Positions 28,024 to 54,683 of a DNA stretch of 64,000 bases are shown here, piece by piece. This stretch comes from an uncultured Oscillospiraceae bacterium (GTDB lineage: Bacteria > Bacillota > Clostridia > Oscillospirales > Oscillospiraceae): positions 1-64,000 of the forward strand of contig CAKTPQ010000003.1 of the NCBI GenBank assembly GCA_934591745.1. Reading direction: 5' to 3'. Within the stretch, counting starts at the first letter, position 1, and every line of letters begins with the position of its first letter. The translations under genes were made by a program, and so were the position numbers. The notes below the pieces were generated by a model. The model made no database searches. It was not told the DNA's origin and saw only the letters and a program-made list of their open reading frames with translations.

Positions 28024-28052
28024 TTGACATCCGGATTCTTCCAATCTATAAT
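28024..28052 (+). promoter_or_regulatory. perfect consensus promoter of the B12-riboswitch operon
   Basis: TTGACA (28024-28029), exactly 17 bp, TATAAT (28047-28052). Transcription should start near 28059, giving a leader of about 610 nt before the first gene. Confidence 0.92.
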
Positions 28053-28090
28053 GATAAACGGCGGCTTAGGCCGCTGGCCAATTGAATACA

Positions 28091-28336
28091 TGATCCAAGG
28101 ATGCTGTGCAGCCAGCCTGTCGTAAAGACCCCGTGTGGGTCAGGCAGCGGCTTCAAAGGAACGGGGTGCAGAGCCCCACGCGAACGGCACTGTGAGCGCA
28201 AGAACGTACCGAGGCGGCGTCAGCCGCTGGGACGAAAGTCCGCCATTGCAGACATCACGTCTGTGAGAAGGCAGGTCACGAACGAGGAGAGGATTCTCCG
28301 CGGCGCGAGTCAGAAGACTTGCATGGAGGAGGATCA
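28091..28336 (+). promoter_or_regulatory. cobalamin riboswitch (B12-box aptamer)
   Basis: The RNA contains, in order, the conserved core of cobalamin aptamers. AAAGGAACGGGGTGCAGAGC (28156-28175) corresponds to the GGTGCxAATCC box, and GGCACTGTGAG lies at about 28187-28197. Next come a GGGACGAAAGTCC hairpin, TGTGAGAAGGC near 28262, and GAGTCAGAAGACTTGC (28307-28322), corresponding to the AGxCAGGAxACCTGCC box. TGATCC (28091-28096) and GGATCA (28331-28336) can close stem P1. A terminator follows at 28386. Cobalamin riboswitches normally switch expression off when B12 binds, so the operon downstream should be on under B12 shortage. Boundaries are set by P1 and are approximate. Confidence 0.85.
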
Positions 28337-28385
28337 CCAACAGCGGGCGCTCTCTCCGTGGTGTATGGATAGGCAGGAGTGTGCG

Positions 28386-28420
28386 CCGGCGCTTCCCGAA
28401 AGGGGAGGAGCCGGTTTTTT
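28386..28420 (+). terminator. riboswitch expression-platform terminator
   Basis: CCGGC...GCCGG with an inner CTTCCC/GGGGAG stem and GAAA loop, followed by T6 (28415-28420). It lies 50 nt after the aptamer and is the likely off-state terminator. Confidence 0.8.
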
Positions 28421-28433: not shown

Positions 28434-28475
28434 CGCTGGTCGTCCTCCGGTAAACGGAGGCGGACCGGCGTTTTT
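28434..28475 (+). terminator. second leader terminator
   Basis: CGCTGGTC and CCTCCG pair with CGGAGG and GACCGGCG around GTAAA, followed by T5 (28471-28475). Only 14 nt separate it from the first terminator. Confidence 0.7.
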
Positions 28476-28531
28476 CTGCGCATGGACTTGTCAGGCCGAG
28501 GCGGTTTTTCCAGCCGCCTGCTTTCCATAAG

Positions 28532-28571
28532 GGCGGGAGGGGACCAAACCCCTTCCGCCTCCTCTCTTTTT
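28532..28571 (+). other. third leader hairpin, terminator-like
   Basis: GGCGGGAGGGG (28532-28542) pairs with CCCCTTCCGCC (28549-28559), followed by TCCTCTC and T5. The T-run is displaced, so it may be a weak terminator or a processing stem. The remaining leader to 28654 holds nothing else I can name. Confidence 0.45.
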
Positions 28572-28669: not shown

Positions 28670-31600
28670 ATGCATTACAAAAGAAGTGTGACCGACCGTG
28701 CGTTGGCCATGCTGCTGAGTCTTGTGCTGTGCCTGACCATGGTGCCGCAGATGGTTTTTGCCGCTGCGGATACGTCCGGCGCGGCATCCTGCGTTGCCGT
28801 GAAGGCTGGCGCAGAGACGGCATATGAGACGACCACCGGCGCATACCTGCCCGTCTCGCTGGATCAGTTGTTTACCGACAGCGATGGTCATACGCTGACC
28901 TACACGCTGTCTGACGGCGATTACGGCACACAGACCAAGCTCGCCAAAGACGCGGATGGCAAGGACATCCTGTCCTTCACCAATCCGGACGCAGGCACCT
29001 ATACCCCCACCATTACCGCATCCTGCCCCAACGGCGGCAAGGCCTCCGTGCAGCTGACCATCACGGTGGAGCAGGGCGAGGCCGGCGACGCGTCGCAGTA
29101 CGGCTATGACGAGACGCCCGCCGCTTCCGTAAAGGTCTATGTCACCATCGCCAGCGACGGCGTCCCCCTGAAGAGCAATGAGGGCACCGTACTGTCCCAT
29201 CTGGAGGTGGATGTGCCCTATTTCGACCTGGCGTATCAGGGCCTGTCGGAGTTCTACCGATATCACACGGAGAACGGCCAGGGCAACTATATAGATGACG
29301 TCATCGTAGAGCGTCCCACCGCCCTGCACCTGTACCTTTACATGATCGGTGTCTACTATCTGGGCTATACGCCGGAGGAGATCACCAGCGGCGATGTGCA
29401 AATCCCAGGCCATGAAGGCGGCATAGGCGTTGTGGATATGTTCGACGGCACGCCCTATACGGACGATCGGAAGGCATTGTACTTCACCGGCAGCGCCACG
29501 TCCATGTATATGCAGCAGTTCTGGGGCCATGACGAGAACCTGATGTATTATCGCAACCACGTCTATCCCCTGAAGAGCGCCGGCTGGGGCAGCACAGCGG
29601 ACTATGTTCTGTTGTCTGATGGCGACACCATTGACTTGTCCATGTTTACCGACTGGAGCTTCTGGCACGACGGCGGCGCCTTTGCCGCCTTCGACCGGGA
29701 CGACTATACCGTGTCCGCGGGCGATGAGCTGACCTTCAAGACCCTCAAGTATGACACCAAGTCCGTGGCCGACGGCGGCACAGAGCAGTTCGACCCCATT
29801 ACCGGCCTGGATATGCGCGTCTATGACGAAGACTGGCAGCAGATAGACGCTGTCGCGCCCGGCGATGACGAGAGTACCTATACTTACACCTTCGATGAGG
29901 CGGGCACCTATTATCTGCTGGGCATCGACCCCAATGCCGGTACCAAGGCTGCCCGGTTCGCACCGGCCACCGCCAAGGTCACGGTAGAGAGCAAGACGGT
30001 TCCCGTGCCCACCCGCAAGGCGGACTATCCCGCCGCCAGCGAGGCCACGGTCAAGACCGGCATGGCCTATCTGCTCAGCGACCTGCAGGCGGGCAAGGTG
30101 TTTGCTCCCGTGGACGGCCAGCGCCTGACCTATGCGAACTACTATTACCAGCGTTCCACCGATGGCGGCAAGACCTGGGGCAGCATGCAGCACTTCTCTG
30201 AGTCTCTTTTCGGCGGGACTACCATCCAGCTCACCGAGCTGTCGGAGGGCGATTACACCTACCGCTTCTATGCCTCTCACGACGGCGAGAATTTCTCCGA
30301 GGATACCTGGACGCTGACGCTCCATGTGCAGGACAGTCCCGCCATGAACTTCACGTTCTTCGTCGGCAAGGACTATACCGACAGTTATCCCGTCATCCGG
30401 CTCTACAACGTGGATGAGGATGGCGAGGGCAATGAAGTGCTGGGCGATGCGATTGAGAACTGCTTCAGGTACAGCGATTTCACCGACACCCTGCCGGAGG
30501 GCCAGGACGCCTACGATCCCGCCGCCGGCCTGCTGACAGGCGGCTACCAGGTGTTCTACGCCAGTCTCAAGGCCGGACGCTATGCCTACCGCGCCTTTGC
30601 AAAAAATGCGGACACCGGCGCGTATGACGTGGAGCTGGGCGGCATGACCCTGGATCTGCCCACCGACACCAACGTGGATGGCGGCGCCGGCGGCGGCACC
30701 AATATCTACCTCCGGTGCGGCTCCTTCTATGTTGACAGCAAAAAGACGGACGGCACCTATTTTGCGGCGGATGAGTACCACGTGCGGGTGGACTGCCCCA
30801 TCATGGGAACCGCCTGCGCCATGGGCGAGCCGTACACCAAGGGCAGTTACACCTATTATCCCACGGTGCTGTACGCCGCCGGCAATGCCTGCCTGTACAA
30901 CAGTTACGCCTACCCCGATATTGACGGCTATGTCTTCACGCAGAACATCAACCGGACCTTCTCCGCCGGCAGCGGTGCCTTTGAGGAGAAGCTGACCATC
31001 AACGCCGGTGTTGAGCTGACGGTCACGGTGCCCGATGATACCGATTTCGGCCTGTACTTCCAGTGGAACAACTTCAACACCACGGAAGTGGCGCCTGTGA
31101 ACGCGACAGAGGACTTTGACGGCTGGAGCCACAAGGAGAACGGCACCAAGTCCGTCGTCTACTTCATCTCCAAGGGCAATGGCAACTACACCTGGCGTCT
31201 CAGCGATGCCACGCATGTGACCCGGGCTGGCTGGCTGACCCAACTTAATGCCAGAGAGGAACTGTCCTTCAGCTTCGACGCCGGCGCCGCCACGGACCGC
31301 CTGTCCCATGATTTCAGCAATCTGGGTTCACAGACCGTGAACCGCGACGAGGCCGACCTGCAGGTGAATCTGGATCCCAGCGGCTATAAGGCGCTGAACG
31401 ACACCACCCGCGTCCGGGCTTACCGTCACTGGCAGCTCATCAACAATGACGCCGGCAACATCATGGTGGAGCCTGATTTCCACTGGGACCGGCAGTCCGG
31501 CGACGCGGAGATCGAGACGGTCAACGGCGGCAATACCACCGCCAACTGGGCGGACATTACCCCCGGTACGCAGGATTCCATCATCACCGTCTACTATGAC

Positions 31601-34054
31601 AGTGTGGATGTGAATCCCGGCAGCTACGGCAGCCACGGCGGCCTGTATCCCGCCACCCAGCCCCAGCGCGTGGGCGTCATCGTGGTGGGCGGCACCGGCG
31701 TGGAGCACGGCACCGCCGACGCGGATGTGGACTTCAACATGGCCGCCGGAGCCACCACCACCCGTTCCATGGACTGGGACTACAACTACGACACGTGGTA
31801 CTATGAGGCCGGTGAGACGGATCCCACGCTGACCTTCGCCGTGGTGAAGAGCACCGGCGATGTCACGGTGGACTACGCCTTTGTCGCCACCAACAACGCC
31901 ATGGTTACCACCGTTTCCGCCTTCCGGACCATTTCCGCCGGTGCGGACGGCCGTTACACGGTGCCGCTGGCTGATTTCAACGACCTGGGCAACGGCATGG
32001 GCGGCACCGTCATCCTCCGCATGACTGATAACAGCGGCGTCAGCTACCGGCTGGTGCGTGTAGCTAAGGTCACTATCACCTCCGAGAACGCCAGCCACAA
32101 GGGCGAGGACATCATGCCCGGCGATCAGGTGAAGCTGACCTTCAGCGGCATGTTCCGCGGCGTCAACAAGATCTCCGGCATCTTCAACCCCACCACCTTC
32201 ATGCCTACCTACTATGCAGGCGATACCAAGTGTGCGGGTGCGTTGGGACAGTACCAGAGGATGGACAACGCCTCTGTCAGCGTCACGCTCCCCGCGGACA
32301 TCGTCTTTGAGGACGGGCAGGAAACGACAACGTACACCTTCACCAACGGCTACACCTACGGCAGCATGTATTCTGCCGCCAACCCCTTCGCATTCCTGTA
32401 TGGCATGACGGATACCGGCGTGGGTACCAACTTCAACGCCGTCACCGTCAACTACTACATGAACCACTACGCCGACGCCGTGGTCACGGTCCACCGTAAG
32501 GTCTTCTATGACGTGGCACTGGACATCACGGATGCCGGCGGTACGGCGCTGTCGGGCGTGACCATCGCACTGACCGACAGCAGCGGCAAGGCTGTCGCGG
32601 CCAACGAGAATGGCCGCTTCCAGCTGGGCTACGGCACGTATAACTACGTTCTGACCAAGGATGGCTATGTGGTGACACGGAGCAGCTTCACCCTGAGCAG
32701 CGCTGACGCCGACAAGGTGCAGGACGGTATCCTGACCATCAAGGCGTCCATGGACGCCGCTGGTGCTGCTCCTTGGGATGGTACCACGCGCACCGAGCCC
32801 TCCAAGGATGATGACGGTGTTTATCTCATCGGCACCGGCGCCGAACTGGCATGGTTCGCCGCCAACGGCGGTGAGGACAGCGCCAGGCTGACGGCGGACA
32901 TCGAGCTGTCGGGCTACGACTGGACGCCCATGAATAAGTTCTACGGCACGTTTGACGGGCAGGGGCATGTCATCCGCAACCTGTACGTCAACAGCAGCAG
33001 CTATCCGCTGGGCCTGTTCGGCTATCTGCAGTCCGGGGCCTCCGTCACGGAGCTGGGCATCACAGGCGACGTGACCTGCACCGCCAGAAGCAACGCGCAG
33101 GCGGGCGGCATCGCAGGTTATATGTACGACAAGGCGTCCATTACCCAGTGCTGGAGCGCCGTAAACGTCACCACCAAGAAGTACGGCGGCGGTATCGCGG
33201 GTTATACCGCCAAGGGTGCGGCTATCACCGACTGCTATGCCACCGGTACGATCCGCACCACCTCCGCCAATGAGTGCTATCTGGGCGGTATCTGCGCCAG
33301 CTTCTACAGTAACACGGCCGGCGCGGCCCTTACCAACTGCTACAGCATCGCCACGGTCGTCGGCAGCGGCGGCAATGCCTCCTATGTGGGCGGCCTGTCT
33401 CCCGTCACCAATGGACAGTACTACGTGAACAGCTATTATCTGGAAGGCACCGTCTCCGGCGCAAGCGCCAAGTACGGCGTTACCGGCCTTGGCACCTCTT
33501 TCACCGCGGCGGACGGCCTGAGCGCCGAAACGCTGGGCAACAACTTCGCAGCGGATGACAAGGGCATCAACAGCGGCTATCCGATCCTGACCTGGCAGGT
33601 CGTCGCGGAACCCGAACTGACGGGCCTGAGGATCACCACGCCGCCCACCAAAACCGAGTACCTGCCCGGTGAGGACTTTGAGCCCGCTGGTATGACGGTG
33701 GTGGCCGTGTACGACGGCGTCACCGAGGTAGAGGTCACGGACTACACCGTGGAGGACGGAGAGGCTCTCAAAGCAGAGGCCACCGCCGTCACCGTGAAGT
33801 ACGGTGGCTTCACCGCCCAGCAGGCCATCACCATGCTGGCCCGGTATGACAAGGGTGATGTGAACAACGACGGTGTGGTGGATGATGCCGACGCCGCCAT
33901 GGTCTATGCCTTTGCCAATGCCAAGCTCACCGCAGACGCCCGACAGGCTGACGCCGCCGATATCAACGGCGACGGTGCCGTGACGGCCGCAGACGCGGAG
34001 ATCATCTATTCTTTCTATCTGGGAGAGCTCGCTTCTCTCACCGCTCACAACTAA
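28670..34054 (+). CDS. secreted transcobalamin-like/GLUG protein with C-terminal dockerin
   Basis: This 1,794-aa protein is the first gene after the riboswitch; AGGAGG lies 9 bp before ATG 28670. It has a signal peptide (to about residue 30), a cadherin-like beta domain (about 40-140) and a region at about 152-370 with the pattern of DUF4430/transcobalamin-C-like domains (VKVYVTIASDG, then YVLLSDGDTIDL). More beta-sandwich domains follow, then a GLUG beta-helix region (about 1,390-1,640: FYGTFDGQGHVIRNLYV, AGGIAGYM), a bacterial Ig-like domain and a type I dockerin (about 1,727-1,790). The dockerin has two calcium loops, DVNNDGVVDDADA and DINGDGAVTAADA. It should be secreted and docked onto a cohesin; the next gene supplies one. 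The DUF4430 link points to corrinoid binding; ligand contact is inference. Confidence 0.85.
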   Translation: MHYKRSVTDRALAMLLSLVLCLTMVPQMVFAAADTSGAASCVAVKAGAETAYETTTGAYLPVSLDQLFTDSDGHTLTYTLSDGDYGTQTKLAKDADGKDILSFTNPDAGTYTPTITASCPNGGKASVQLTITVEQGEAGDASQYGYDETPAASVKVYVTIASDGVPLKSNEGTVLSHLEVDVPYFDLAYQGLSEFYRYHTENGQGNYIDDVIVERPTALHLYLYMIGVYYLGYTPEEITSGDVQIPGHEGGIGVVDMFDGTPYTDDRKALYFTGSATSMYMQQFWGHDENLMYYRNHVYPLKSAGWGSTADYVLLSDGDTIDLSMFTDWSFWHDGGAFAAFDRDDYTVSAGDELTFKTLKYDTKSVADGGTEQFDPITGLDMRVYDEDWQQIDAVAPGDDESTYTYTFDEAGTYYLLGIDPNAGTKAARFAPATAKVTVESKTVPVPTRKADYPAASEATVKTGMAYLLSDLQAGKVFAPVDGQRLTYANYYYQRSTDGGKTWGSMQHFSESLFGGTTIQLTELSEGDYTYRFYASHDGENFSEDTWTLTLHVQDSPAMNFTFFVGKDYTDSYPVIRLYNVDEDGEGNEVLGDAIENCFRYSDFTDTLPEGQDAYDPAAGLLTGGYQVFYASLKAGRYAYRAFAKNADTGAYDVELGGMTLDLPTDTNVDGGAGGGTNIYLRCGSFYVDSKKTDGTYFAADEYHVRVDCPIMGTACAMGEPYTKGSYTYYPTVLYAAGNACLYNSYAYPDIDGYVFTQNINRTFSAGSGAFEEKLTINAGVELTVTVPDDTDFGLYFQWNNFNTTEVAPVNATEDFDGWSHKENGTKSVVYFISKGNGNYTWRLSDATHVTRAGWLTQLNAREELSFSFDAGAATDRLSHDFSNLGSQTVNRDEADLQVNLDPSGYKALNDTTRVRAYRHWQLINNDAGNIMVEPDFHWDRQSGDAEIETVNGGNTTANWADITPGTQDSIITVYYDSVDVNPGSYGSHGGLYPATQPQRVGVIVVGGTGVEHGTADADVDFNMAAGATTTRSMDWDYNYDTWYYEAGETDPTLTFAVVKSTGDVTVDYAFVATNNAMVTTVSAFRTISAGADGRYTVPLADFNDLGNGMGGTVILRMTDNSGVSYRLVRVAKVTITSENASHKGEDIMPGDQVKLTFSGMFRGVNKISGIFNPTTFMPTYYAGDTKCAGALGQYQRMDNASVSVTLPADIVFEDGQETTTYTFTNGYTYGSMYSAANPFAFLYGMTDTGVGTNFNAVTVNYYMNHYADAVVTVHRKVFYDVALDITDAGGTALSGVTIALTDSSGKAVAANENGRFQLGYGTYNYVLTKDGYVVTRSSFTLSSADADKVQDGILTIKASMDAAGAAPWDGTTRTEPSKDDDGVYLIGTGAELAWFAANGGEDSARLTADIELSGYDWTPMNKFYGTFDGQGHVIRNLYVNSSSYPLGLFGYLQSGASVTELGITGDVTCTARSNAQAGGIAGYMYDKASITQCWSAVNVTTKKYGGGIAGYTAKGAAITDCYATGTIRTTSANECYLGGICASFYSNTAGAALTNCYSIATVVGSGGNASYVGGLSPVTNGQYYVNSYYLEGTVSGASAKYGVTGLGTSFTAADGLSAETLGNNFAADDKGINSGYPILTWQVVAEPELTGLRITTPPTKTEYLPGEDFEPAGMTVVAVYDGVTEVEVTDYTVEDGEALKAEATAVTVKYGGFTAQQAITMLARYDKGDVNNDGVVDDADAAMVYAFANAKLTADARQADAADINGDGAVTAADAEIIYSFYLGELASLTAHN

Positions 34055-34069: not shown

Positions 34070-36238
34070 ATGAAGAAGATCGTATCTTTCCTGCTGGCGC
34101 TGGTGCTGACGCTGAGTCTCACCACCAATGCGCTGGCCGCCGTTGTCAGTCCCAAAACGGACGTGACCGAGGCCGCGGTGGGACAGACCGTCAAGCTGAC
34201 GGTCACCGCCTCCGGCCAGGAGCCGCTGACCGGCGTCGTATGCCTGAATTACCGGGTATACTTTGACCCCGCAGTTTTTGAATTGGATGCCGCCGCCTCC
34301 GCGGCGAACACCAAGGGCGCCCGGCTGACGGCCCTCAAGACCGATGAGGTCGGCAGCTACTACGCCGTATCCCTGCTGGATCCCACCAGCGAGGGCCTCG
34401 ATGTCAGCGGCGACCTGTACACGCTGGTCTTTAAGGTCAGGGACAGCGCGGCAGTGAACACCGAGTCCGTGCTCACCATCGCAAAAGCCCACATCTACAC
34501 CATTGCCGATGGTGCCATGCAGCCCGTGGACAACGGCGCTGTGGAGAACAGCACTGTCACCGTGAAGATCATCAGCTCCGCTCCTGCCACAGTGACGCTG
34601 GGGACGGCGAAAGCCGGAGCCAACGGCATCAAGGTGACCTGGACGCAGACAGAGGGTGCGGTGAAGTACAACGTCTACCGGAGGACGGCGGATACGAAGT
34701 GGACGTCGGCGCCGCTGGCCACGGTGAGCGGCACCAGCTTTACGGATAAGACGGTGAAGGCCGGTGAGACATACATCTACACGGTGCGGGGCATCGCATC
34801 GGACGGCAAGAGCCTCAGCACCGGCTACGACAAGAATGGCGTGACCGCCACGGCGCTGCCGGCCACGGTGAAGCTGACGGGGGCAAAGGCCAGCGGCAGC
34901 AGCATCGTGGTGACGTGGAAACAGGCGGAAGGCGCGGTAAAATACCGGGTATACCGCCAGGCCACCGGAGAAAGCAGCTGGACGACGCTGACCTCGTCGG
35001 CCACGGGCACCAGCTATACGGACAAGAAGGCGAAGGCCGGTGTGACATACACGTACACGGTGCGCGCTCTGAACGCCGCCAACAGGCTGAGCGCCGGCTA
35101 TGATAAGAACGGCGTCAAGGCTATCATTGCCCCGGCCACGGTGACGCTGGGTACGGCGAAGGCCGGAGCCAACGGCATCACGGTGACGTGGAAACAGGCG
35201 GAAGGCGCGGTAAAATACCGGGTATATCGTCAGGCCGCCGGAGAAAGCAGCTGGACGACGCTGACCTCGTCGGCCACGGGCACCAGCTATACGGACAAGA
35301 AGGCGAAGGCCGGCGTGAAGTATATCTACACGGTGCGAGGCGTGGCGTCGGACGGCAAGACGCTGAGCGCCGGCTACGATAAGACGGGCGTGAGCGCCAC
35401 GGCACTGCCGGCCACGGTGAAGCTGACGGGGGCAAAGGTCAGCGGCAGCAGCATCGTGGTGACATGGTCCAAGGCGGAGGGTGCGGTGAAATACCGTGTC
35501 TACCGCAAGAGCGCCGGCACCGACTGGACGACGCTGACCTCGTCGGCTACGGGCACCAGCTACACGGACAAGAAGGCGAAGGCGGGTGTGAAGTACACGT
35601 ATACGGTGCGTGCGCTGAACTCGGTCAATGGGCTGAGCGGCGGCTATGATAAGAACGGCGTCAGCGCCGTCATCGCGCCGGCGAAGGTGGTACTGGTCAG
35701 TGCGAGAGCGGATTCCGCCGGCATCCTGGTGACATGGAAGGCCGCCAGCGGCGCCCACACGTACCAGGTGTACCGCAAGACGGCGAGCGACGGCTGGAAG
35801 CTGGTGGCGAAGAACATCAGCGACACGGAGTGGAAGGACACCAGCGCGGTGAAGGGGACCACGTATACGTACACGGTGCGTGCGGTGGCGGATGACGGCA
35901 CCACCAGAGGCGCCTGCGACACCAGGGGCAAGAGCGCTGCGGTGACGAAGGCATCGACCACGCCGGCCAACGTGACGATGGGGAAGGCCACCGCCGGGAA
36001 GAAGGGCATCACGGTGACGTGGAGCTACGCGGCGGACGCCCGGACGTACCGGGTGTACCGGAAGGCGGCGGGCGAGACCAAGTGGACGATCGTGGCCAAG
36101 AATGCCGAAGGCAAGAACTGGACGGATAAGAACGTGACCAAGGGCGTGAAGTACACCTACACGGTGCGCGGCGTCTCCGCCAACGGCAAAGCCCTCAGCA
36201 GGAGCTATACCGCCACCGTCTCCGCTACCGCTAAGTAA
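34070..36238 (+). CDS. cohesin scaffold protein with six Fn3 repeats
   Basis: A 722-aa secreted protein. ATG 34070 is preceded by AGGAGGGG and starts a signal peptide (to about residue 23). Residues about 24-165 form a cohesin domain (VGQTVKLTVTASGQEPLTGV, LNYRVYFDPAVFEL, SGDLYTLVFKV). Six fibronectin type III repeats follow, each starting PATV or similar and containing VTW, YRVYR and YTYTVR. There is no sorting motif, S-layer domain or C-terminal membrane segment, so anchoring must come from elsewhere, perhaps through the Fn3 repeats. Cohesins bind dockerins, and the genes on both sides encode dockerin proteins, so this is the likely scaffold of the system. It lies 15 bp after the first gene. 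Confidence 0.88.
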   Translation: MKKIVSFLLALVLTLSLTTNALAAVVSPKTDVTEAAVGQTVKLTVTASGQEPLTGVVCLNYRVYFDPAVFELDAAASAANTKGARLTALKTDEVGSYYAVSLLDPTSEGLDVSGDLYTLVFKVRDSAAVNTESVLTIAKAHIYTIADGAMQPVDNGAVENSTVTVKIISSAPATVTLGTAKAGANGIKVTWTQTEGAVKYNVYRRTADTKWTSAPLATVSGTSFTDKTVKAGETYIYTVRGIASDGKSLSTGYDKNGVTATALPATVKLTGAKASGSSIVVTWKQAEGAVKYRVYRQATGESSWTTLTSSATGTSYTDKKAKAGVTYTYTVRALNAANRLSAGYDKNGVKAIIAPATVTLGTAKAGANGITVTWKQAEGAVKYRVYRQAAGESSWTTLTSSATGTSYTDKKAKAGVKYIYTVRGVASDGKTLSAGYDKTGVSATALPATVKLTGAKVSGSSIVVTWSKAEGAVKYRVYRKSAGTDWTTLTSSATGTSYTDKKAKAGVKYTYTVRALNSVNGLSGGYDKNGVSAVIAPAKVVLVSARADSAGILVTWKAASGAHTYQVYRKTASDGWKLVAKNISDTEWKDTSAVKGTTYTYTVRAVADDGTTRGACDTRGKSAAVTKASTTPANVTMGKATAGKKGITVTWSYAADARTYRVYRKAAGETKWTIVAKNAEGKNWTDKNVTKGVKYTYTVRGVSANGKALSRSYTATVSATAK
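34911..35313 (+). repeat. near-identical DNA repeats inside the Fn3 region
   Basis: About 130 bp at 34911-35040 recur at 35184-35313, offset 273 bp, with only a few mismatches. A less similar third copy starts near 35457. The spacing equals one Fn3 repeat, so unequal recombination could change the scaffold length in frame. Confidence 0.75.
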
Positions 36239-36254: not shown

Positions 36255-36292
36255 CCTCTGCCGCCCCTGGCAGACGCCAGGGGCGGCAGAGG
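36255..36292 (+). other. strong intra-operon hairpin
   Basis: CCTCTGCCGCCCCTGGC (36255-36271) pairs exactly with GCCAGGGGCGGCAGAGG (36276-36292). The next bases are ACCCTATTTT, so termination would be partial at best. It lies in the only gap over 100 bp within the operon, between the scaffold and the propeller gene. Confidence 0.7.
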
Positions 36293-46700: not shown

Positions 46701-46771
46701 GTACATGGTTTGCCGGCGCACGCCGCGCCGCCCGGAGACGGGCGGACAACAGTAAGGAGTGGTACTCGTGA
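40727..46771 (+). CDS. giant GLUG-repeat protein with C-terminal membrane anchor
   Basis: A 2,014-aa protein. ATG 40727 follows AGGAG, with a signal peptide to about residue 26. Three beta-helix blocks with GLUG-type motifs (GTFDGGGFIIHGLSV, GGIAGR, GTLDGQGHTISGLYI) alternate with long Ala-rich helical stretches likely to form coiled coils (about 340-450, 880-1,160, 1,580-1,930). The end is a Pro-rich linker, one membrane segment (about 1,970-1,992) and a basic tail with ARRAARRRA. It should span the wall with its C-terminus in the membrane. It lies 25 bp after the dockerin gene and overlaps the next gene by 4 bp. No dockerin or cohesin is visible. A structural stalk or anchor for the complex is plausible. 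Confidence 0.8.
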   Translation: MRKRITALLLACALALGLLPVPILAAPAGETAYPVSTAAEFAAMDPAGCYRLTEDVTIAAPFPAVFTGSFDGGGHTVTLALTAQADTMSLALFPEVDGASIEALTLTGTVSAGEDSGLAYAAALVGAASGDTVITACKTTARMDITVPGASVGGLTAIQVDGALTLTGCASSGEISASQAVFTGGLVGRQEPYSTLTLQNCYQAADVTGGGEEGLCAGGLIGSVGGSAVLRSCWSAASPEDHTPSLTAWGAQYRVSAGLPGALCGAVDDGASLAGEHCFCIAVPVGGDSTLTLLEPGLFPEYGSHRRGILLDSLNASGDVPEDCVFLLPPETGWPLLRWEQPMTEEERLAAARQTAAAEVEDAFRTASDRVQTLLAEVMGRTGLWYELYDAARQTAADTAARLAQQRAEALASLDADTDINEIQRLAAESRTAMEQTAAGLENALGGNGVSADKRWDGVTQTRPVGSGTAADPYRITSGTELAWFAGRVNAGSTALCARVTEALDLGDMPWTPIGVSDGVDTDGGYCGTFDGGGFIIHGLSVTDTAAQRSYTGLFGTVSSGGVICHVRLAGNITCDQPDSGGNRVLNCAAGGIAGRSSGTLYRCETSVYITTGSGARPAVHVGGIAGQLDGNAIVDGCTSFGTLTGDLSNAGGIAGTVRQNALVRYCRSEGTVTGLRSVGGIAGFLTGGGHLRECENRAAVTGAVAVGGIAGRLDKDSHFSNELDVTVTHTVNYGAVSGSSGNACGTGGIAGWIGAVENGTYTGAAHLSYVYNGGAVTAGGSTTGTACGGLVGNWKTGCVTHGQNASANGLWGVAETLGTTAEDVVQVSALSPDVTPDASRWDKTAASRTLLAQRITPTDARRAVYGDAQSAVYNDILLTYLRRVELSTSAAETETLLADCGAQLQTVLTGAAAAGAQLLADLRAYAAARLYGPEDAAEIQRLLEQAAQDVAAAVTLRDVALLRQTYLGTDRLDGLLQRVPTYPARMRQALYSAFIYQKNYSLEDMAALLCAYEDWCLQMERAVSVQAVDALYADARQALSQLAFTFQPADTPPDMDRAAALALELARTRARQRLTELADSRIAALADLAGDLMPYPAARRQRLTAVLAYSAAAIRAAADRDFTVLTDHAAVAETLETATADVEAAYDAARTRIQRLLDSTGDWDGISVQQPGGSGTAADPYRIGTAQELAWLAQAVNSGAGEAYHAMVTADIDLGFQPWPVIGASAPFTGTLDGQGHTISGLYINELAEPTALGLFGTAEDAALRDLTVSGAIDLTDVDMTGAADALSVGGLIGRGSGVTLEGCVSQVDIAVSLTNAPDSQSAALGGLVGRLSGGVHRLADCRSEGRLTVTSAPGSRYLGGSGQGGLGGIVGSVTSDAVLTRCVNAGSVTADRAAGVGGIAGRLDGGTVTVTQCANQGAVSNDTAASLLRRGGTGGIAGLAVSGAVTIDRCYNTAVIAGRTIVGGILGGEIGDYAASIPSYTGNSALVVQYCYNAGRLDTGASMERVGSLAGYPLDGCYREGLTVLTGTARARLGWRSSQGDSVTERSTLTPDVFPGLVRSIGGLNGGYPLFDWQLLESRSRETVISYLEDYYTRYAAPYVSAAQRQELAALLTDTAAAIRGASSADDVLTAFDTAMARLTSPELLEQAIAAARKRLAKLCKDACKAYPHIADELRALYEKQLAALEGCTVAAETDTVLDGFAAGVVDCLLLKLDGIPMKELETRLPAAEAAAAALTDVQRGMLLYYGRLPERKALLILYQQNIEKLNQWRKADKKAYDDLTEEIAALAARTRQALDDATDAKGMTAALDIYCAGVVELLITALGPVPELLTLEEAALYQKNILRAQAAYSRLTDAQKELVPNLEALEAAQARYAQFQQDLAAARRVESLIAAIGTVTADSLAAIQRAQAAYDALTPAQKILVSPAMLTLLQTAWARWQELASQPEETPAPVQPKAVPSPSPAPVQRPFNWSLVWMSLGVAACFSVITFAGTWFAGARRAARRRADNSKEWYS

Positions 46772-48879
46772 AAAAATGGATATCGCGGGCGCTGCGCCTG
46801 ACGGCGGCCCTGGCCCTGGTGCTGTCTGCCGTATGGCTGGCCGCGGGGCTGAAGCCCGCCGCTCCGCCTCAGCCGGAGGCGCAGCCCGCCTCCCGCACCC
46901 TTATCACGGAGGGGGAGCTGCTGTACGACGGCACGGCGCTGACCGCCTCGGACGTCTCCTTCACCGGTGATGCCTCCGCTATCCCGCCTGCCGACCCCGC
47001 GCCGGAGGAGACACCTCCGGAGGATACCTCCGCGGCGGACACCCCCACGGAGGATGTCTCCACCGATACCGCCGACGGGCTGGAGGACTTTCAGGACATC
47101 GCGGATAAGGGCGGCGGCTCCGGGGGACAGCTCCCCAGCCGGGACACCGGCGGGCAGACCGACGGCGGCTCCGGCCAGCCGGAGGAGGGGGACGCCTGGT
47201 TCACCACCTCCATCGTGGACGGCGACCGGGTGACGGACGCCGACTACCCCTTCACCATCCGCCATCTGAAGCCGGATGCCCAGGTGCTGGGCCTGTCCGT
47301 GACCGTCAACGGCGCCGTCACGGATTACGCCGCCAACACCGCCGCCGGTACGCTGACCCTTACCGGCGGCGCCAATACCGTCACCGTCACTGCGCAGTAT
47401 CAGACGGCGGACCGCACCGTTACCGCTGTCCGCACCTATACCCTGTACTATCTGGACGGCCAGTGGGTGCTCATCGTCCAGCGTGCATCGGACGATGCGT
47501 CCCTCAGCGGCCTTACGGTCACGGAGCGGACACTGACGTTCCGAGCCGTGGCTGTGCAGGCAGACGTTCAGCAGCCGGTGCAGACCGTCCGTGTCAATGG
47601 CAGCACTGTCACCGGCAGCGGCGACCTCTACACCGCACAGCTCCGCGCCGGTGACAACGAGATCACCGTGGAGGCTGGGGGCCGCATCGGCCTGACGGAG
47701 ACATACACCGTTACCTATACCGCTCCGTCCTTCCGCATCGACACTCTGTTTTCCGACGGCCAGACCCGCACGGTCACGGCGGACACACCCTCCGGCGGCT
47801 CCGAGACCGTCACCGTGGAGGGCAGCAGCGAGGATATCTGCGCATGGGTGTCCGTGGAAGGCGTCACCGGCCTTGAGACACTGGAGGAGCTGCGTCTGGA
47901 CGGACAGCGCCTCTCGCCGGGTGCCGACGGCGGCTATGCCGTCACGCTGGACCCCCGCACCCCTGTGACCCTGACGCTGTACTACACCGATTCGGACGGC
48001 GCGTCCCGGGAATACAGCTACATCCTGCGCTTCCAGCGCACCGGCGGTGCCGAGGAGGCACAGCCGCCCACCATCTCCGCCCAGATCGAGGCCGATGGCA
48101 CCACCATGGGCCTGACGGACGGCCTTGTGCTGAAGAACCCCGCCGTCCTCCTGCTGGTGGAGGGCCGCAGCGGACAGGGTGAGCAGCTTTACAGCAACAA
48201 TTTCACCGTCACCGTCAACGGCACCGTCATTCCCGCTCCCGCCTCCCAGTCCGGCAGCCTGTTCGGCTACGACGCCTACCTGCTGTACGAGGGGGCCAAC
48301 ACCATCACCGTCACCGCCGTGGATAACGACGGCGTCAGCGCCTCCCGGACGTGGACGGTGTACTATGAGGCGGGACAGATCACCGTCACCGTCAGCGTGG
48401 AGGCCACCACCGTGGGTCTGGGCACGCTGGTGCCCTACGCCTCCGTCACTGTCCCCGGCGGCACCGACGCCCTCACCATTCTGGAGCAGGCGCTGGCCCA
48501 GTACGGCTACACCGCCGATGTGGAGCGGGGCGAATACCTGTCCGCCATCTGCGGCCCCGGCATCTGCACCGGTTACAGCATCGACCCGGAGCTGATGGAA
48601 CTGATCGTGGCTGACGGCATGGACGCCCAGGGCGTGGGCTATGACCCGGCTCCGGCATCAGAGGACCGTCTGGGTGAATTTGACTTTTACCGCTGGTCGG
48701 GCTGGATGTTCTCCGTCAACGGAAGCTACCCCGGCATCGGCATGGCGTCCTACGCGCCCCAGGACGGCGCGGTGCTGCGCGTCCGCTTTACGCTGGCCAT
48801 GGGCAAGGACATCGGGGCCTACGATGGCTCCGGCGGCGCCTACGGCGAATCCAGCGGCAACTATTACAGAGAATGGTAA
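46768..48879 (+). CDS. membrane-anchored DUF4430 (transcobalamin C-terminal-like) protein
   Basis: A 703-aa protein. GTG 46768 is preferred, with AAGGAG 8 bp upstream and a GTGA overlap with the previous stop; the frame is also open from GTG 46759. An N-terminal membrane segment (about 8-26) is followed by an acidic Pro/Thr-rich linker (to about 135) and several beta-sandwich domains. A C-terminal DUF4430 domain (about 537-690) contains DALTILEQALAQYGYTAD and FYRWSGWMFSVNGSYPGIG. In transcobalamin and intrinsic factor the C-terminal beta domain of this type closes over the B12 ligand. It is a candidate corrinoid receptor at the membrane. The aromatic-rich GWMxxVNG motif matches that in the lipoprotein at 53168. 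Confidence 0.82.
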   Translation: MKKWISRALRLTAALALVLSAVWLAAGLKPAAPPQPEAQPASRTLITEGELLYDGTALTASDVSFTGDASAIPPADPAPEETPPEDTSAADTPTEDVSTDTADGLEDFQDIADKGGGSGGQLPSRDTGGQTDGGSGQPEEGDAWFTTSIVDGDRVTDADYPFTIRHLKPDAQVLGLSVTVNGAVTDYAANTAAGTLTLTGGANTVTVTAQYQTADRTVTAVRTYTLYYLDGQWVLIVQRASDDASLSGLTVTERTLTFRAVAVQADVQQPVQTVRVNGSTVTGSGDLYTAQLRAGDNEITVEAGGRIGLTETYTVTYTAPSFRIDTLFSDGQTRTVTADTPSGGSETVTVEGSSEDICAWVSVEGVTGLETLEELRLDGQRLSPGADGGYAVTLDPRTPVTLTLYYTDSDGASREYSYILRFQRTGGAEEAQPPTISAQIEADGTTMGLTDGLVLKNPAVLLLVEGRSGQGEQLYSNNFTVTVNGTVIPAPASQSGSLFGYDAYLLYEGANTITVTAVDNDGVSASRTWTVYYEAGQITVTVSVEATTVGLGTLVPYASVTVPGGTDALTILEQALAQYGYTADVERGEYLSAICGPGICTGYSIDPELMELIVADGMDAQGVGYDPAPASEDRLGEFDFYRWSGWMFSVNGSYPGIGMASYAPQDGAVLRVRFTLAMGKDIGAYDGSGGAYGESSGNYYREW

Positions 48880-48892
48880 AGGAGAAACGATG

Positions 48893-49825
<933 letters not shown>

Positions 49826-49827: not shown

Positions 49828-50919
49828 ATGGCGCGGAACCGTATCCTGTTTCTTCTCTGGCTGCTGCTGTGGCTGGCGGCATGGGCGCTGGGCGCGGGCA
49901 ATGTGTCCGGCGGCATCCTGCTGGGCAGCGTACTGCTGGCACTGGTGGAGATCGTGTTGGCCCGCCGCATCCGGAAACGGCTGTCGGCGGTCCTCGCCGC
50001 CGGACTGTCCTGCCGGAAAGGCGGGCCGCTGCCGGTGACGCTGACCGTATCCAATACCGGCTTTTTCACCGCGCCGCAGGTGCGGGCGGTGGTGCGCTGC
50101 CGAGACCTGCTCACCGGCGAACAATGGGAAAAGACCCTGCGCCTTGCCGTTCCCGGCAGGGGGGAGGGCAGCGCCGCCGCGTCCTTCACGCCGCCGCGCT
50201 GCGGCAAGCTGGAGCTGACGGTGCAGACCTTGACGGCCTTTGACATCTTCGGCCTGCGGGGCACACGTCGGAGCGTCTCCCTCACCGCCTCGGCGCTGGT
50301 GCTGCCAGAGCTGTGGCCCGTCACGCTGTCCCTGTCGGAGCACTGCCTGCCGGACGCGGACAGTGCGGAGTACTCCATGACCCACCCCGGCGACGACCCC
50401 AGCGAGACGTTTGGCCTCCGGGAGTACCAGAACGGCGACCGTCTGCGCAGCATCCACTGGAAGCTGTCGGAAAAGACGGACGGCCTCATGGTACGCCAAC
50501 TGGGCCTGCCGGTGGACGACACGCTGCTGCTGGTGCTGGACAACTCCGCTGCCGTGCCGCCCTCTCCGCTGGAGCGGGAGGCGCTGGGCGAGGCGGTGAT
50601 CTCCGTCTCCGCCGCCCTGTGCCAGCAGGGCTTTGCCCACCGTATCGCGTGGCTGGACCGCCCCAGCGGCGAGCTGGCCTTCCGCGCCGTCTCCTCCATG
50701 GACGAGCTGACGGCGGCCATGCCCGACATCCTTTCCGCCGAAACAGAGGTGGACGGGGAGGACGTGCCCGTCCGTCTGGTGTCCTGCCGCGCCGCCGATG
50801 CCGCCCGTATGCTGGTGCTGACGCTGCGTCCCGCCGGGGAGCCGTCCGCCGCCATGACGTTCTGCACCGTCACCCCGGCTGCGCTGCGTGGAAAGGAGGG
50901 ATTGACACTTGCGCTCTGA
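49828..50919 (+). CDS. DUF58 protein
   Basis: A 363-aa protein with two N-terminal membrane segments (about 5-45), a beta-rich middle and the DUF58 signature FGLREYQNGDRLRSIHWKLS. A VWA-like fold follows (DDTLLLVLDNS). DUF58 proteins are membrane partners of MoxR ATPases. ATG 49828 comes 2 bp after the MoxR stop without a clear ribosome site, so translation is probably coupled. It overlaps the transglutaminase gene by 11 bp. Confidence 0.88.
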   Translation: MARNRILFLLWLLLWLAAWALGAGNVSGGILLGSVLLALVEIVLARRIRKRLSAVLAAGLSCRKGGPLPVTLTVSNTGFFTAPQVRAVVRCRDLLTGEQWEKTLRLAVPGRGEGSAAASFTPPRCGKLELTVQTLTAFDIFGLRGTRRSVSLTASALVLPELWPVTLSLSEHCLPDADSAEYSMTHPGDDPSETFGLREYQNGDRLRSIHWKLSEKTDGLMVRQLGLPVDDTLLLVLDNSAAVPPSPLEREALGEAVISVSAALCQQGFAHRIAWLDRPSGELAFRAVSSMDELTAAMPDILSAETEVDGEDVPVRLVSCRAADAARMLVLTLRPAGEPSAAMTFCTVTPAALRGKEGLTLAL

Positions 50920-53155
50920 TGCTTTGCGCCGTATCGTCCCCGCCGCTCTGCTGGCCATGTCCTTTCCCGTGCTGCTGGCGGGCCTGCTGGGTCTGACCGC
51001 GCCTCTGTGGCTGCCGCTGCTGCTGGCCGTACTGTCCGCCGGGACAGCGGCGGCCCTTGCCGGAAGCCGCCGCCCGTGGCTGCCGTTCCTGTGTTGGACA
51101 GCCCTGTGCGCCGCCGTGCTGCTGGCGCAGGGCAGCGCCCTCACCGGCGGACTTGCCGCGCTGGTCAACGCCTCGCTCCACACGTGGCGGCAGGTGTTCC
51201 CCCGCATTTATCCCACCTTCACCGCGCCCTCGGACGACACGGGCCTCACGGTGCTGCTGACGGTGCTCTCCGCCCTCTGGGGCCTGTGGAGCGCCCGCTG
51301 CACCCTGCGTCCCCGGACGCTTCCCCTTTGCCTGACGGCGCTGCCGCTGGCGGCAGCCGCCGTGGTGCTGGCCCCCGCCGCCCCCCTGTGGTGGATGGCG
51401 TTGGCCGCGCTGACCCTGCTTTTCCTGTACCTGCTGGCCTTTGGCCGGGAGGGGAGCGCCGCCCTGCGGGTCTGGTGCCGTGCTGCTGTGATCGTACTGC
51501 TGACCGTGACGGTGCTGGACGGCTGGAACGGCGATACCGCCCGCCCCGCGTGGCTGGATGACGGCAATGCCGCCGTCTCGCAGGGCGTGGACGCCCTGCG
51601 CTATGGTGATAACGCCGCCGCCGGATTACCGGGCGGCGACCTCACCATCGCCGGGCCTGCCCGGACGGAGGAGCCTATGCTCACCGTCACCATGACCGTC
51701 CCCACGTCCTACTACCTTCGCGGCTTCGTGGGGGAGACGTACGCCGGCGGCCGCTGGACGCCGCTGGACAGCGCCTCTCTGGCGGAGAGCGCCGACACGT
51801 TCTACTGGCTGCACCGGGACGGCTTCCGTCCCCTGACCCAGCTGACATCGGCGGCCCGCGCCGCCGCGCCGGAGCTGCTGGACACGCACAATACCGTGAC
51901 GGTGGAAAATACCGGTGCCTCGTCGAAATATCTTTACGCGCCCTATGAATTGGGGTATGATACCCCTGTACCCGTTGAGAACGCCGTGGGCGAGGCGTCT
52001 CTCGCCGCCTCCGGCCTGCGGGGCCAGCGGACGTACACCCTCTCCGCCGCCGGGAATATCCTGGTCAAGCACCGCCTGATCGGCGCGTCTCTGGCGGAGG
52101 ACACCGCAGCCAACGCCGCCTTTCTGGACGCGGAGAGCGCCTATAACCGCTTCGCCTACGACCATTACACCGACATCCCCGACGATATCCGCCGCTTCCT
52201 GACGGAGAAGCTCAGCGGCTGGGAGAAGGAGCCGGGCCAGACACACTTCGACTGCCAGCGCGCCAAGCAGAACATCCTGTTCTATCTGAGCACCTACGTC
52301 ACCTACACGGAGACGGCCTCCGCGCCGTCCGCCGGCACCGACCCCATCCTCTACTTTCTGGACGGCGTCCAGACCGGCGGTGACGCCCAGTACGCGGCGG
52401 CAGCAGCCATGATGTTCCGCTACTACGGCATCCCCGCCCGCTGCGTGGAGGGCTTTCTGGTGACGAAGGACGCTGCCGCGTCCATGACGCCGGGGCAGCC
52501 TCTGACTCTCACCGGGCAGAGCGGCCATACATGGGTGGAGTACTATCAGGACGGCGTGGGCTGGCTGCCCTTCGAGGTGGCGCCGCCCTATCTCAGCGTC
52601 ATGGAGCAGGCCGAGAGCTACCAGAACGTCTCCGGCCTGGTGGGGCAGGTCCCGCCGGACACGGAGGACAACGAGGAACCGGACGCGCCGGACAGCGACC
52701 TGGCCCAGACCCTCCGGGAGTTCTGGCTCAAGTACCGCCTGACTATCCTGCTGACCCTGTCCTGCATTCTGGCCGCCGTCGTGGTGTGCCTGTTCACCGG
52801 CTGGCTCATCTGCCAGCGGAAAAAGACCGCCCGCCGCAAGGCCCGCTTCGCCGACCCCCATGTGCCCACGGCCATCGACGCCATCTACCGCTACACCATG
52901 GATGTGCTGCGAGCCAGAGGCATGCCTGCCGCCAACTGCGCCCCCGCCGACTATGCCCCGTTTCTGGACGAGGACCTGCGGGAGGAGTACCGCGCCGTGG
53001 CCGCCCTGTGGGAGCAGGCCCGCTTCGGCGCCGCCCCCATGGACGAGTCCCAGCGCCGCCGCGCCCTTGCGCTGGAGGAGCAGGTCTGGACGCGGACATG
53101 GCGCCGTGCAGGGCTGGGGGAGAAGCTGTGCCTGAAATACAAGGAATTTCTGTAA
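50909..53155 (+). CDS. TgpA-type membrane transglutaminase-fold protein lacking the catalytic Cys
   Basis: A 748-aa protein. TTG 50909 lies 8 bp after GAAAGGAGGG. About five N-terminal membrane segments (to about residue 205) precede an extracellular transglutaminase-like domain and another membrane segment (about 612-634), then a cytoplasmic DUF4129-like tail. In the core, where the family reads GYCxHFA, this protein has GGDAQYA, so Asp492 replaces the nucleophilic Cys. The following MMFRYYGIPARCVEGF and His540 in SGHTWVEYY fit normally, and Glu replaces the usual Asp in GWLPFEVAP. It is probably not a protease or transglutaminase but may bind peptide or act structurally. It completes the familiar MoxR-DUF58-TgpA trio. 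Confidence 0.85.
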   Translation: MRSDALRRIVPAALLAMSFPVLLAGLLGLTAPLWLPLLLAVLSAGTAAALAGSRRPWLPFLCWTALCAAVLLAQGSALTGGLAALVNASLHTWRQVFPRIYPTFTAPSDDTGLTVLLTVLSALWGLWSARCTLRPRTLPLCLTALPLAAAAVVLAPAAPLWWMALAALTLLFLYLLAFGREGSAALRVWCRAAVIVLLTVTVLDGWNGDTARPAWLDDGNAAVSQGVDALRYGDNAAAGLPGGDLTIAGPARTEEPMLTVTMTVPTSYYLRGFVGETYAGGRWTPLDSASLAESADTFYWLHRDGFRPLTQLTSAARAAAPELLDTHNTVTVENTGASSKYLYAPYELGYDTPVPVENAVGEASLAASGLRGQRTYTLSAAGNILVKHRLIGASLAEDTAANAAFLDAESAYNRFAYDHYTDIPDDIRRFLTEKLSGWEKEPGQTHFDCQRAKQNILFYLSTYVTYTETASAPSAGTDPILYFLDGVQTGGDAQYAAAAAMMFRYYGIPARCVEGFLVTKDAAASMTPGQPLTLTGQSGHTWVEYYQDGVGWLPFEVAPPYLSVMEQAESYQNVSGLVGQVPPDTEDNEEPDAPDSDLAQTLREFWLKYRLTILLTLSCILAAVVVCLFTGWLICQRKKTARRKARFADPHVPTAIDAIYRYTMDVLRARGMPAANCAPADYAPFLDEDLREEYRAVAALWEQARFGAAPMDESQRRRALALEEQVWTRTWRRAGLGEKLCLKYKEFL

Positions 53156-53167
53156 GGAGGAACGCCC

Positions 53168-54643
53168 ATGCGCGTCATGAAAAAGACCCTGCTGCCCCTG
53201 CTGCTGGTGGTGAGCCTGCTGCTCCCCGCCTGCGGCGCGCAGCCCGCCGGCGGGGAGGAGGCCCCGTGGCAGACCGCTTACCGCCAGACCGGGGAGTATC
53301 TGCTGTCCCAGGATGCCCCCACCGCCGGCTCTGTGGGCGGCGAATGGACGGTGGTGGGGCTTCGCGCCGCAGGTCTGCTGTCCCGTGAGACCGCCGCCGT
53401 CTACTACGAATCTGCCGCGGCCTATGCGGCTCAGGCTGACGGGAACCGCCTGAACCCCAACAAGTCCACGGAGAACGCCCGCACCATTCTGGGCGTCACC
53501 GCCGCCGGACACAATGCCGCCGACGTGGACGGCGTGGATCTGACGGTAGGGCTGGGCGATATGGAATATCTTCGCCGTCAGGGTCTCAACGGCCCCGTCT
53601 GGGCGCTGATCGCACTGGACAGCGGCGCGTATCCCGACCCTGCCCCCGCGGAGGGCGCAGAGCCTGTGACCCGTGCCGCGCTGGTGGCGGAGGTGCTGTC
53701 CTCCCGCTGCGCCGACGGCGGCTGGACACTGATGGGTGACACGCTGGACGTGGACATCACCGCCATGGCTCTGACGGCGCTGGCCCCCTATACGGAGGAT
53801 GCCGCCGTGCAGGCGGCGGTGGACGCCGCCGTGCAGATGCTGTCCGACAGCCAGCTGCCCAGCGGCGGCTTTGCCAGCTGGGGTACGGAGAACTGCGAAT
53901 CTGCGGCCCAGGTGCTGGTGGCCCTGACCTCCCTCGGCATCGACCCGCTTACCGACAGCCGCTTCCTGAAGAACGGCGCCACGGTGCTGGACGCGCTGGC
54001 CGCCTTTGCCGTGGAGGGCGGCGGCTTCCGCCACATCGCGGAGCAGACCGCCCCGGACGATATGGCCACGGAGCAGGGCTTTTACGCGCTGGCGGCCTAT
54101 GACCGCTTCACCAGGGGCCAGTCCCGCCTGTTCGACATGACCGCCGCGGCCCAGGACGCCTACCAGACCGACCCCGTGCCGGCAGGCAGGCCCCAGCCGG
54201 TGGAGCCGGAGGACGCCCGGGTGGACGAGGGCACCACCTATACCTGCACCGTCTCCATCTCCTGCGCCGCGCTGCTGGACAGCATGGACAAGCTGGCGCA
54301 GAACAAGCGTCCGCTGGTGCCGGAAGACGGTGTGCTCCTGCCGGAGACGCAGGTCACCTTCTCCGCCGGAGAGAGCGCCTTTGATGTGCTCCAGCGTGTC
54401 TGCCGTGACAATAAGCTCCACATGGAGTCCAGCTTCACGCCCCTCTACAACAGCGCCTATATCGAGGGCATCGGCAACCTCTACGAGTTCGACGCCGGCA
54501 GCCTGTCCGGCTGGATGTACGCCGTCAACGACTGGTTCCCCAACTACGGCTGCTCCCGCTATCAGCTGCAAAACGGCGATGTGGTCCGCTGGGTCTACAC
54601 CTGCGACCTGGGCAAGGATGTGGGCGGCGGCATGACCAACTGA
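53168..54643 (+). CDS. transcobalamin/intrinsic-factor-like lipoprotein
   Basis: A 491-aa lipoprotein. ATG 53168 follows AGGAGG, and the lipobox LLLPAC places lipidated Cys22. Residues about 35-325 form a helical alpha/alpha-barrel of the prenyltransferase/terpenoid-cyclase type, with repeats such as ADGGWTLMGDTLDVDITAMAL and PSGGFASWGTENCESAAQVL. Residues about 350-485 are a DUF4430 domain with SAFDVLQRVCRDNKL, GSLSGWMYAVNDWFPNYG and NGDVVRWVYT. This two-domain order is that of animal transcobalamin and intrinsic factor, where B12 is held between barrel and beta domain. As the last gene of a cobalamin-riboswitch operon it is the best candidate for the surface B12-binding protein. A B12 transporter is not in the window. 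Confidence 0.85.
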   Translation: MRVMKKTLLPLLLVVSLLLPACGAQPAGGEEAPWQTAYRQTGEYLLSQDAPTAGSVGGEWTVVGLRAAGLLSRETAAVYYESAAAYAAQADGNRLNPNKSTENARTILGVTAAGHNAADVDGVDLTVGLGDMEYLRRQGLNGPVWALIALDSGAYPDPAPAEGAEPVTRAALVAEVLSSRCADGGWTLMGDTLDVDITAMALTALAPYTEDAAVQAAVDAAVQMLSDSQLPSGGFASWGTENCESAAQVLVALTSLGIDPLTDSRFLKNGATVLDALAAFAVEGGGFRHIAEQTAPDDMATEQGFYALAAYDRFTRGQSRLFDMTAAAQDAYQTDPVPAGRPQPVEPEDARVDEGTTYTCTVSISCAALLDSMDKLAQNKRPLVPEDGVLLPETQVTFSAGESAFDVLQRVCRDNKLHMESSFTPLYNSAYIEGIGNLYEFDAGSLSGWMYAVNDWFPNYGCSRYQLQNGDVVRWVYTCDLGKDVGGGMTN

Positions 54644-54650
54644 ACCGCAC

Positions 54651-54683
54651 CGCCCGCCTGTCGTGGACAGGCGGGCGTTCTTT
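54651..54683 (+). terminator. terminator of the B12-riboswitch operon
   Basis: CGCCCGCCTGTC (54651-54662) pairs exactly with GACAGGCGGGCG (54666-54677), followed by TTCTTT, 8 bp after the last stop. Confidence 0.85.

Follow-up and report, generated by a model that had tools for sequence, protein, structure and literature searches.

The 64,000-nucleotide stretch of DNA analysed here (the window), from an uncultured Oscillospiraceae bacterium, encodes at positions 28670-54643 a unit of nine genes that lie on the same strand and are separated by 2-146 bp or overlap. A leader RNA with a match to the cobalamin riboswitch family RF00174 precedes the unit, a terminator closes it, and its products include dockerin and cohesin proteins and, from the last gene, a predicted lipoprotein resembling the animal carriers of vitamin B12. 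On comparative evidence and a predicted fold, we consider it probable that the unit is a vitamin B12-repressed operon for corrinoid capture at the cell surface. An initial annotation of this DNA had proposed such an apparatus, assembled by cohesin-dockerin docking, and the fold model and the comparisons with related genomes described below support that proposal.

The unit and its leader RNA

The layout of nine closely spaced genes between a consensus promoter and a closing terminator agrees with the initial description (Table 1), and the region holds two promoter-like sites, versus a mean of 0.2 in shuffles. The cobalamin-class aptamer proposed at the same time stood in part. The match to RF00174 spans the whole model and is significant (E-value computed over 751 nt against all Rfam families), but its score lies under the gathering score of 31.5 bits. 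We call this RNA a cobalamin riboswitch because the E-value is significant and relatives carry RF00174 at a comparable position. Two structural elements go beyond what had been described before: two tandem terminator-like hairpins that follow the aptamer, and a further hairpin inside the unit, between genes 2 and 3. The tandem pair was found with a hairpin and T-run script of our own, which allowed up to two mismatches. With the promoter on its 5´ side, the two terminator-like hairpins on its 3´ side and then gene 1, the aptamer occupies the position of a riboswitch with an expression platform. A candidate antiterminator helix at 28346-28387, which overlaps the first terminator-like hairpin by just 3 nt, is not claimed here. 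For the MoxR and DUF58 genes, the starts were moved, by eye, to 48890 and 49828.

Table 1. Features of the nine-gene unit and its leader, in window positions
Feature	Position	Strand	Evidence
Sigma-70-type promoter, TTGACA-17-TATAAT	28024..28052	+	12/12 consensus positions
Cobalamin riboswitch aptamer, RF00174	28116..28340	+	29.8 bits, full-length model 1-189, E 1.2e-5
Terminator-like hairpin 1, stem then TTTTTT	28385..28420	+	stem -21.1 kcal/mol; own hairpin/T-run script
Terminator-like hairpin 2, stem then TTTTT	28434..28475	+	stem -28.0 kcal/mol; own hairpin/T-run script
Third leader hairpin with T-rich tail	28531..28560	+	terminator scan; -24.5 kcal/mol
Gene 1, 1794-aa secreted protein, Big_3, C-terminal type I dockerin (~33851-34006)	28670..34054	+	Pfam, dockerin 44.0 bits
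Gene 2, 722 aa, N-terminal cohesin (~34160-34564), then fibronectin type III repeats, GH85_C accessory match	34070..36238	+	Pfam
Internal hairpin between genes 2 and 3, 17-bp perfect stem, weak T tract	36255..36292	+	hairpin in the 146-bp gap
Gene 3, 1438 aa, cadherin-like, PQQ-type beta-propeller, C-terminal type I dockerin (~40513-40674)	36385..40701	+	Pfam
Gene 4, 2014 aa, C-terminal hydrophobic segment (by eye)	40727..46771	+	no Pfam family at E<=1e-3
Gene 5, N-terminal hydrophobic segment (by eye), C-terminal DUF4430 (~48388-48819)	46768..48879	+	Pfam
Gene 6, MoxR-type AAA+ ATPase	48890..49825	+	PF07726, 189.3 bits
Gene 7, DUF58 protein	49828..50919	+	PF01882, 27.1 bits
Gene 8, TgpA-like membrane transglutaminase-core protein	50909..53155	+	PF01841, 53.5 bits
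Gene 9, transcobalamin-like, lipobox-like signal (by eye), alpha/alpha toroid (~53285-54142), DUF4430 (~54368-54601)	53168..54643	+	Pfam, fold model
Closing terminator	54651..54677	+	-25.9 kcal/mol for 54649-54690

Gene 9 and the other products

The DUF4430 domain of gene 9 scores 63.8 bits against a PF14478 cut-off of 23.8. In the fold model of the protein (predicted local distance difference test, pLDDT, 85.6) an alpha/alpha toroid is followed by a beta-grasp domain, and the 15 best Foldseek matches of this model in the PDB are transcobalamin, intrinsic factor and haptocorrin (E 2.9e-10 to 3.0e-7). The predicted two-domain fold thus resembles that of the animal carriers, and the domain order is the same as that given for transcobalamin in the part of PMC1796856 that treats it. 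Gene 9 differs from the animal proteins in its low identity to them (12-16% across the 15 Foldseek rows) and its lipobox-like signal, and its binding of cobalamin is a prediction. VIA-align of the model placed terpene cyclases at the top; these align with the toroid only, and intrinsic factor ranked 47th. By sequence, phmmer gave no match of gene 9 to transcobalamin structures, and a profile (A1) matched squalene-hopene-type cyclases and others, with no transcobalamin at E<=1; the link to transcobalamin rests on the DUF4430 domain and the predicted fold. Among 400 genomes of one family, 97 matched gene 9 at E<=1e-60, the best with 51% identity over residues 3-327, and the DUF4430 part alone reached up to 72% identity among the matches listed. 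This gene 9 search of the 400 genomes revealed none that is near-identical to the genome of the window.

The initial annotation had assigned DUF4430 domains to at least three, and probably four, products. Two of these assignments hold, those of gene 9 and gene 5; the latter scores 26.8 bits against the same cut-off, and E 2.7e-24 with our own beta-domain profile. In genes 1 and 3, Pfam (whole protein and excised region) and our own 126-sequence profile found no DUF4430. For gene 1, residues ~156-330 resemble the stretch that precedes the toroid in relatives, which we regard as a weak hint that the N-terminal region is DUF4430-like, but hhalign to DUF4430 gave a 37.7% probability over 34 columns, and a poor fold model (pLDDT 52.7) had a best Foldseek E of 1.2, with many ubiquitin-like rows.

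The two dockerins and one cohesin that had been noted were recovered. Both dockerins, of genes 1 and 3 (44.3 bits in gene 3), lie above the PF00404 cut-off of 22.9. The cohesin of gene 2 scores 40.6 bits against a PF00963 cut-off of 24.1 when the excised domain is scanned, and is absent at E<=1e-3 from the scan of the whole protein, in which fn3 (98.6 bits) and GH85_C (80.4 bits) match. Within the window, matches to our own cohesin, dockerin, toroid and beta-domain profiles are confined to the products of this unit. At Pfam E<=1e-3, none of the nine products has a catalytic glycoside hydrolase domain; the accessory domains GH85_C and Glucodextran_B do match.

Cellulosomes are defined by a multi-cohesin scaffoldin and dockerin-bearing glycoside hydrolases. 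The nine products, with one full cohesin and no such catalytic domain, do not make up a cellulosome, and the B12 riboswitch likewise sets the unit apart from cellulosomes and from the amylosome of Ruminococcus bromii. What they share with both, as far as the relevant parts of PMC5814915 describe these systems, are secreted proteins bearing type I dockerins and cohesins.

Several genes of the unit have counterparts in units of related genomes, which we denote by G-numbers (their loci by L-numbers). In the G002 unit, gene 3 has a relative over nearly its full length (phmmer 768.6 bits), as gene 5 has in G008 (452 bits), and the relatives of gene 4 in G008 and elsewhere are partial. In gene 8, matches to TgpA_N and DUF4129 fall under their cut-offs. 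The MoxR-DUF58-TgpA trio (48890-53155) also lies within the G002 and G008 units, which are linked to riboswitches.

Around the unit, Pfam identifies a pyruvate carboxylase gene directly on the 3´ side. Directly upstream, on the same strand, 25616-27979 encodes a LuxR-family regulator with a MalT-like tetratricopeptide repeat region. Farther upstream, 16152-24194 encodes a predicted surface protein of 2680 aa that is rich in repeats and whose C-terminal end looks sortase-like by eye; our own profiles found no dockerin, cohesin, toroid or DUF4430 in it.

Linkage to riboswitches, transporters and dockerins in relatives

The initial annotation pointed to gene order behind cobalamin riboswitches in related genomes as informative, and the linkage of riboswitch, carrier and transporter proved to be conserved there. 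We examined 79 loci chosen solely by similarity to a gene 9 alignment (the best 80 of 399 stretches encoding a relative were kept). An RF00174 search of the 75 genomes containing these loci yielded 198 places with E<=1e-3 across 160.5 Mb of sequence (rounded sizes), and all 55 places mapped to the loci matched them letter for letter. A same-strand RF00174 match lies within 8 kb upstream in 45 of the 79 loci, versus 0.28 expected from the density of matches, and an opposite-strand match in 4. The gathering score is reached in 37 of the 45 linked loci. Where at least 8 kb of upstream sequence is available, 30 of 45 loci have a same-strand riboswitch; loci with a riboswitch beyond the fetched flank were counted as lacking one, and for L002, L008, L020 and L021 there are such matches on the same contig. 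Of 47 linked aptamers, 34 have a terminator-like hairpin within the next 200 nt; simple shuffles gave 1.0, and the count at +1 kb was 1 of 47. On the other side of the toroid gene, a relative of a fused energy-coupling factor (ECF) ATPase (E<1e-100) is encoded in 51 of the 79 loci, and in 45 of the 54 with at least 6 kb of downstream sequence.

Dockerins and cohesins are also part of other riboswitch-linked units. A toroid and a dockerin occur in a single protein in 20 of the 79 loci. Fifteen of these, three of them from genomes titled R. bromii, carry a riboswitch on the same strand within the fetched sequence, a further two (L020 and L021) have one farther upstream, and for L043, L045 and L064 no riboswitch was found. 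In each of the three R. bromii genomes a single RF00174 match passes E<=1e-3, with scores of 27.0, 27.0 and 36.5 bits, of which the last alone reaches the cut-off. The match lies just 5´ of a toroid-DUF4430-dockerin gene, with ECF genes next. Each genome also has two DUF4430 matches, both at the toroid locus, and its cohesin matches elsewhere in the genome.

In G002, three tandem RF00174 matches (contig C3, 28311-29217, in L162) precede the first dockerin gene. Dockerin and cohesin genes, MoxR-DUF58-TgpA genes, a gene-3-like dockerin protein gene, a toroid lipoprotein gene and a DUF4430 gene follow, with gaps of at most ~220 nt when open reading frames are called on that strand only. Behind them lie a gene for an EcfT-like protein (E 2.5e-54) and the beginning of one for an ECF ATPase. 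The order in G019 and G020 is riboswitch, dockerin genes, cohesin gene, toroid, DUF4430 and ECF genes, and in G008 it is riboswitch (a partial model match), gene-5-like, MoxR-DUF58-TgpA, gene-4-like and toroid genes. Pfam was searched for cohesins in 13 chosen genomes and for dockerins in 5, and matches at E>1e-3 are outside the counts. All dockerin and cohesin matches so counted lie at the B12 locus in G002 (7/7), G019 (4/4), G020 (3/3) and G045 (1/1). The seeds of our own cohesin profile include the window, G002, G019 and G020, so that those matches exist by construction, and do not include L046; those of the dockerin profile include the window, L007, G002 and G019.

CbiD had no match in 20 of 24 genomes chosen from the 75, some of which may be incomplete, so the anaerobic corrin pathway is probably absent there. 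Since CbiD is encoded in three of the four genomes that have all their dockerins and cohesins at the locus, the system is not confined to auxotrophs.

Three loci show further associations. L020 has an ECF set with a CbiQ-like protein and an S component, followed by a CbiR-like cobamide-remodelling protein (17311-18078; 46.9 bits, under the cut-off of 105). L013 has three cobalamin riboswitches at 1861-4114 (109-112.6 bits), the first two each followed by identical-looking small genes (94 aa; 138 aa, DUF4430-like by eye), an apparent recent tandem duplication. In L079, from Clostridium cadaveris, a riboswitch, a toroid gene, other genes and then ethanolamine-utilisation-like genes (by eye) follow one another at 5239-21364; ethanolamine utilisation is a B12-dependent pathway.

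Proposed function and its alternatives

We suggest the following model. When intracellular B12 is low, the riboswitch would allow transcription to run on through both tandem terminators, so that the cell makes the surface proteins; when B12 is high, its binding by the aptamer would favour termination. The gene 9 lipoprotein may clamp a corrinoid between its toroid and beta-grasp domains, with gene 5 as a second beta-grasp protein of the apparatus, and the cohesin of gene 2 and the dockerins of genes 1 and 3 could assemble by calcium-dependent docking. Captured corrinoid would then pass to an ECF transporter, which in relatives is encoded at the same locus. The MoxR-DUF58-TgpA proteins probably act in the assembly or maturation of surface proteins. 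In this model we infer the ligand, the docking partners, the direction of regulation and the role of the MoxR-DUF58-TgpA module; the gene content, domains, predicted fold, riboswitch match and riboswitch-carrier-transporter linkage were computed here.

Parts of this model have precedents. B12 scavenging by Gram-positive surface proteins with an SLBB domain (a transcobalamin-like beta-grasp) and an alpha/alpha toroid, encoded with CbiO and CbiQ, was predicted in 2007, in a section of Burroughs et al. (PMC1796856) that also predicts that several such proteins may form surface complexes. The features in common, as far as that section goes, are toroid and DUF4430-type domains, a place at the cell surface, operons that encode several of these proteins, and a linked CbiO/CbiQ-type (ECF) transporter, the last of these here in relatives. 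To the 2007 prediction the present analysis adds a cobalamin riboswitch, a layer of cohesin and dockerins, and MoxR-DUF58-TgpA as a module; the words riboswitch, dockerin and MoxR do not occur in the text of that paper. The BtuG lipoproteins of Bacteroides offer a second parallel, as surface lipoproteins for B12 capture from B12-riboswitch loci. They differ in using the outer-membrane BtuB route, and according to the passage of that study on their distribution, its BlastP criteria recovered no homologs of BtuG outside Bacteroidetes (PMC6143338). For R. bromii, which has been reported to be unable to make B12 (in the relevant part of PMC6231298), the dockerin proteins are presented as amylosome parts in the pertinent sections of PMC9112005 and PMC5814915, and neither cobalamin nor B12 occurs in the main texts of these two papers. 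In the open-access literature we found no report that combines a cobalamin riboswitch with a dockerin.

Several observations count against a B12-repressed capture operon. In the leader, the aptamer misses its gathering score, no clear antiterminator was found, and a terminator scan tool did not list the tandem hairpins, giving the third hairpin as its sole leader result. The gene 9 model has a predicted template modelling score (pTM) of 0.64 and a root-mean-square deviation from transcobalamin of ~22 Å, and the relative placement of its domains is uncertain. Pfam identifies no ECF transporter genes in the unit or directly after it, so that the unit lacks the CbiO/CbiQ-type genes found in the operons of SLBB-toroid scavenging systems, and the single full cohesin gives no support within the window for a large scaffold. 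The internal hairpin could weaken expression downstream or uncouple genes 3-9. Among relatives, no same-strand riboswitch is seen upstream in 15 of the 45 loci that have 8 kb or more of sequence there, the cohesins of G019 and G020 are under the Pfam cut-off (20.0-21.8 bits) and that of G045 was detected by our own profile only, and these three genomes, which encode CbiD, may make their own corrin ring.

The first alternative is that the unit is B12-regulated and that its complex serves mainly adhesion or another ligand, such as a glycan, mucin or partner cell, with corrinoid binding limited to gene 9 or absent. Modules that are repeat-rich or of the fn3, Ig-like and beta-propeller types take up most of the coding length, genes 2 (GH85_C) and 5 (Glucodextran_B) show matches to accessory domains of glycan enzymes, and cohesin-dockerin proteins elsewhere are treated as adhesins in part of PMC10553843, where dockerin and cobalamin appear as separate topics. 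However, riboswitch and ECF linkage tracks the toroid protein across the 79 loci, and all detected dockerins and cohesins of G002, G019, G020 and G045 are at the B12 locus. We regard this alternative as unlikely.

We give somewhat less weight still to a second alternative, in which the riboswitch governs genes 1 and 2 only, and the internal hairpin ends or strongly cuts the transcript, with genes 3-9 expressed separately. The initial annotation had named a strong internal terminator that separates the riboswitch from the genes as grounds against its proposal. The internal hairpin has a 17-bp stem and lies in the sole wide intergenic gap (146 bp), but its T tract is weak, being short and offset, and no promoter-like site was found in the gap. 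Moreover, in G002 the dockerin and cohesin genes behind the riboswitches are continued, across small gaps, by the MoxR-DUF58-TgpA genes and those for the gene-3-like and toroid proteins, and in G008 a riboswitch lies directly 5´ of the gene-5-like gene. The hairpin may instead set different levels for genes 1-2 and genes 3-9. That the RNA is decayed or of a non-cobalamin type, with hairpins that terminate constitutively, fits the sub-threshold score and the want of a clear antiterminator, and is very improbable given the full-length match, the relatives with RF00174 at that position (37 of 45 above the cut-off) and the terminator-like hairpins common there (34 of 47).

With a B12-repressed operon for corrinoid capture as the preferred reading, a more specific claim is, in our view, as likely as not: that the unit is a dedicated cohesin-dockerin B12 assembly under riboswitch control, and that in R. 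bromii and relatives a dockerin-bearing B12 carrier plugs into scaffoldins otherwise known from starch degradation. The collection of B12 at the surface of Gram-positive gut bacteria is, as far as the open-access literature shows, largely unstudied experimentally. Our analysis names parts for it, which in Clostridia often lie behind cobalamin riboswitches, and R. bromii provides a cultured test case. The theme of carriers that are probably B12-controlled, together with cohesins and dockerins, is common to relatives including R. bromii and suggests a little-known route by which gut bacteria gather B12. If this is true, cohesin-dockerin assembly would extend from glycan digestion to vitamin capture.

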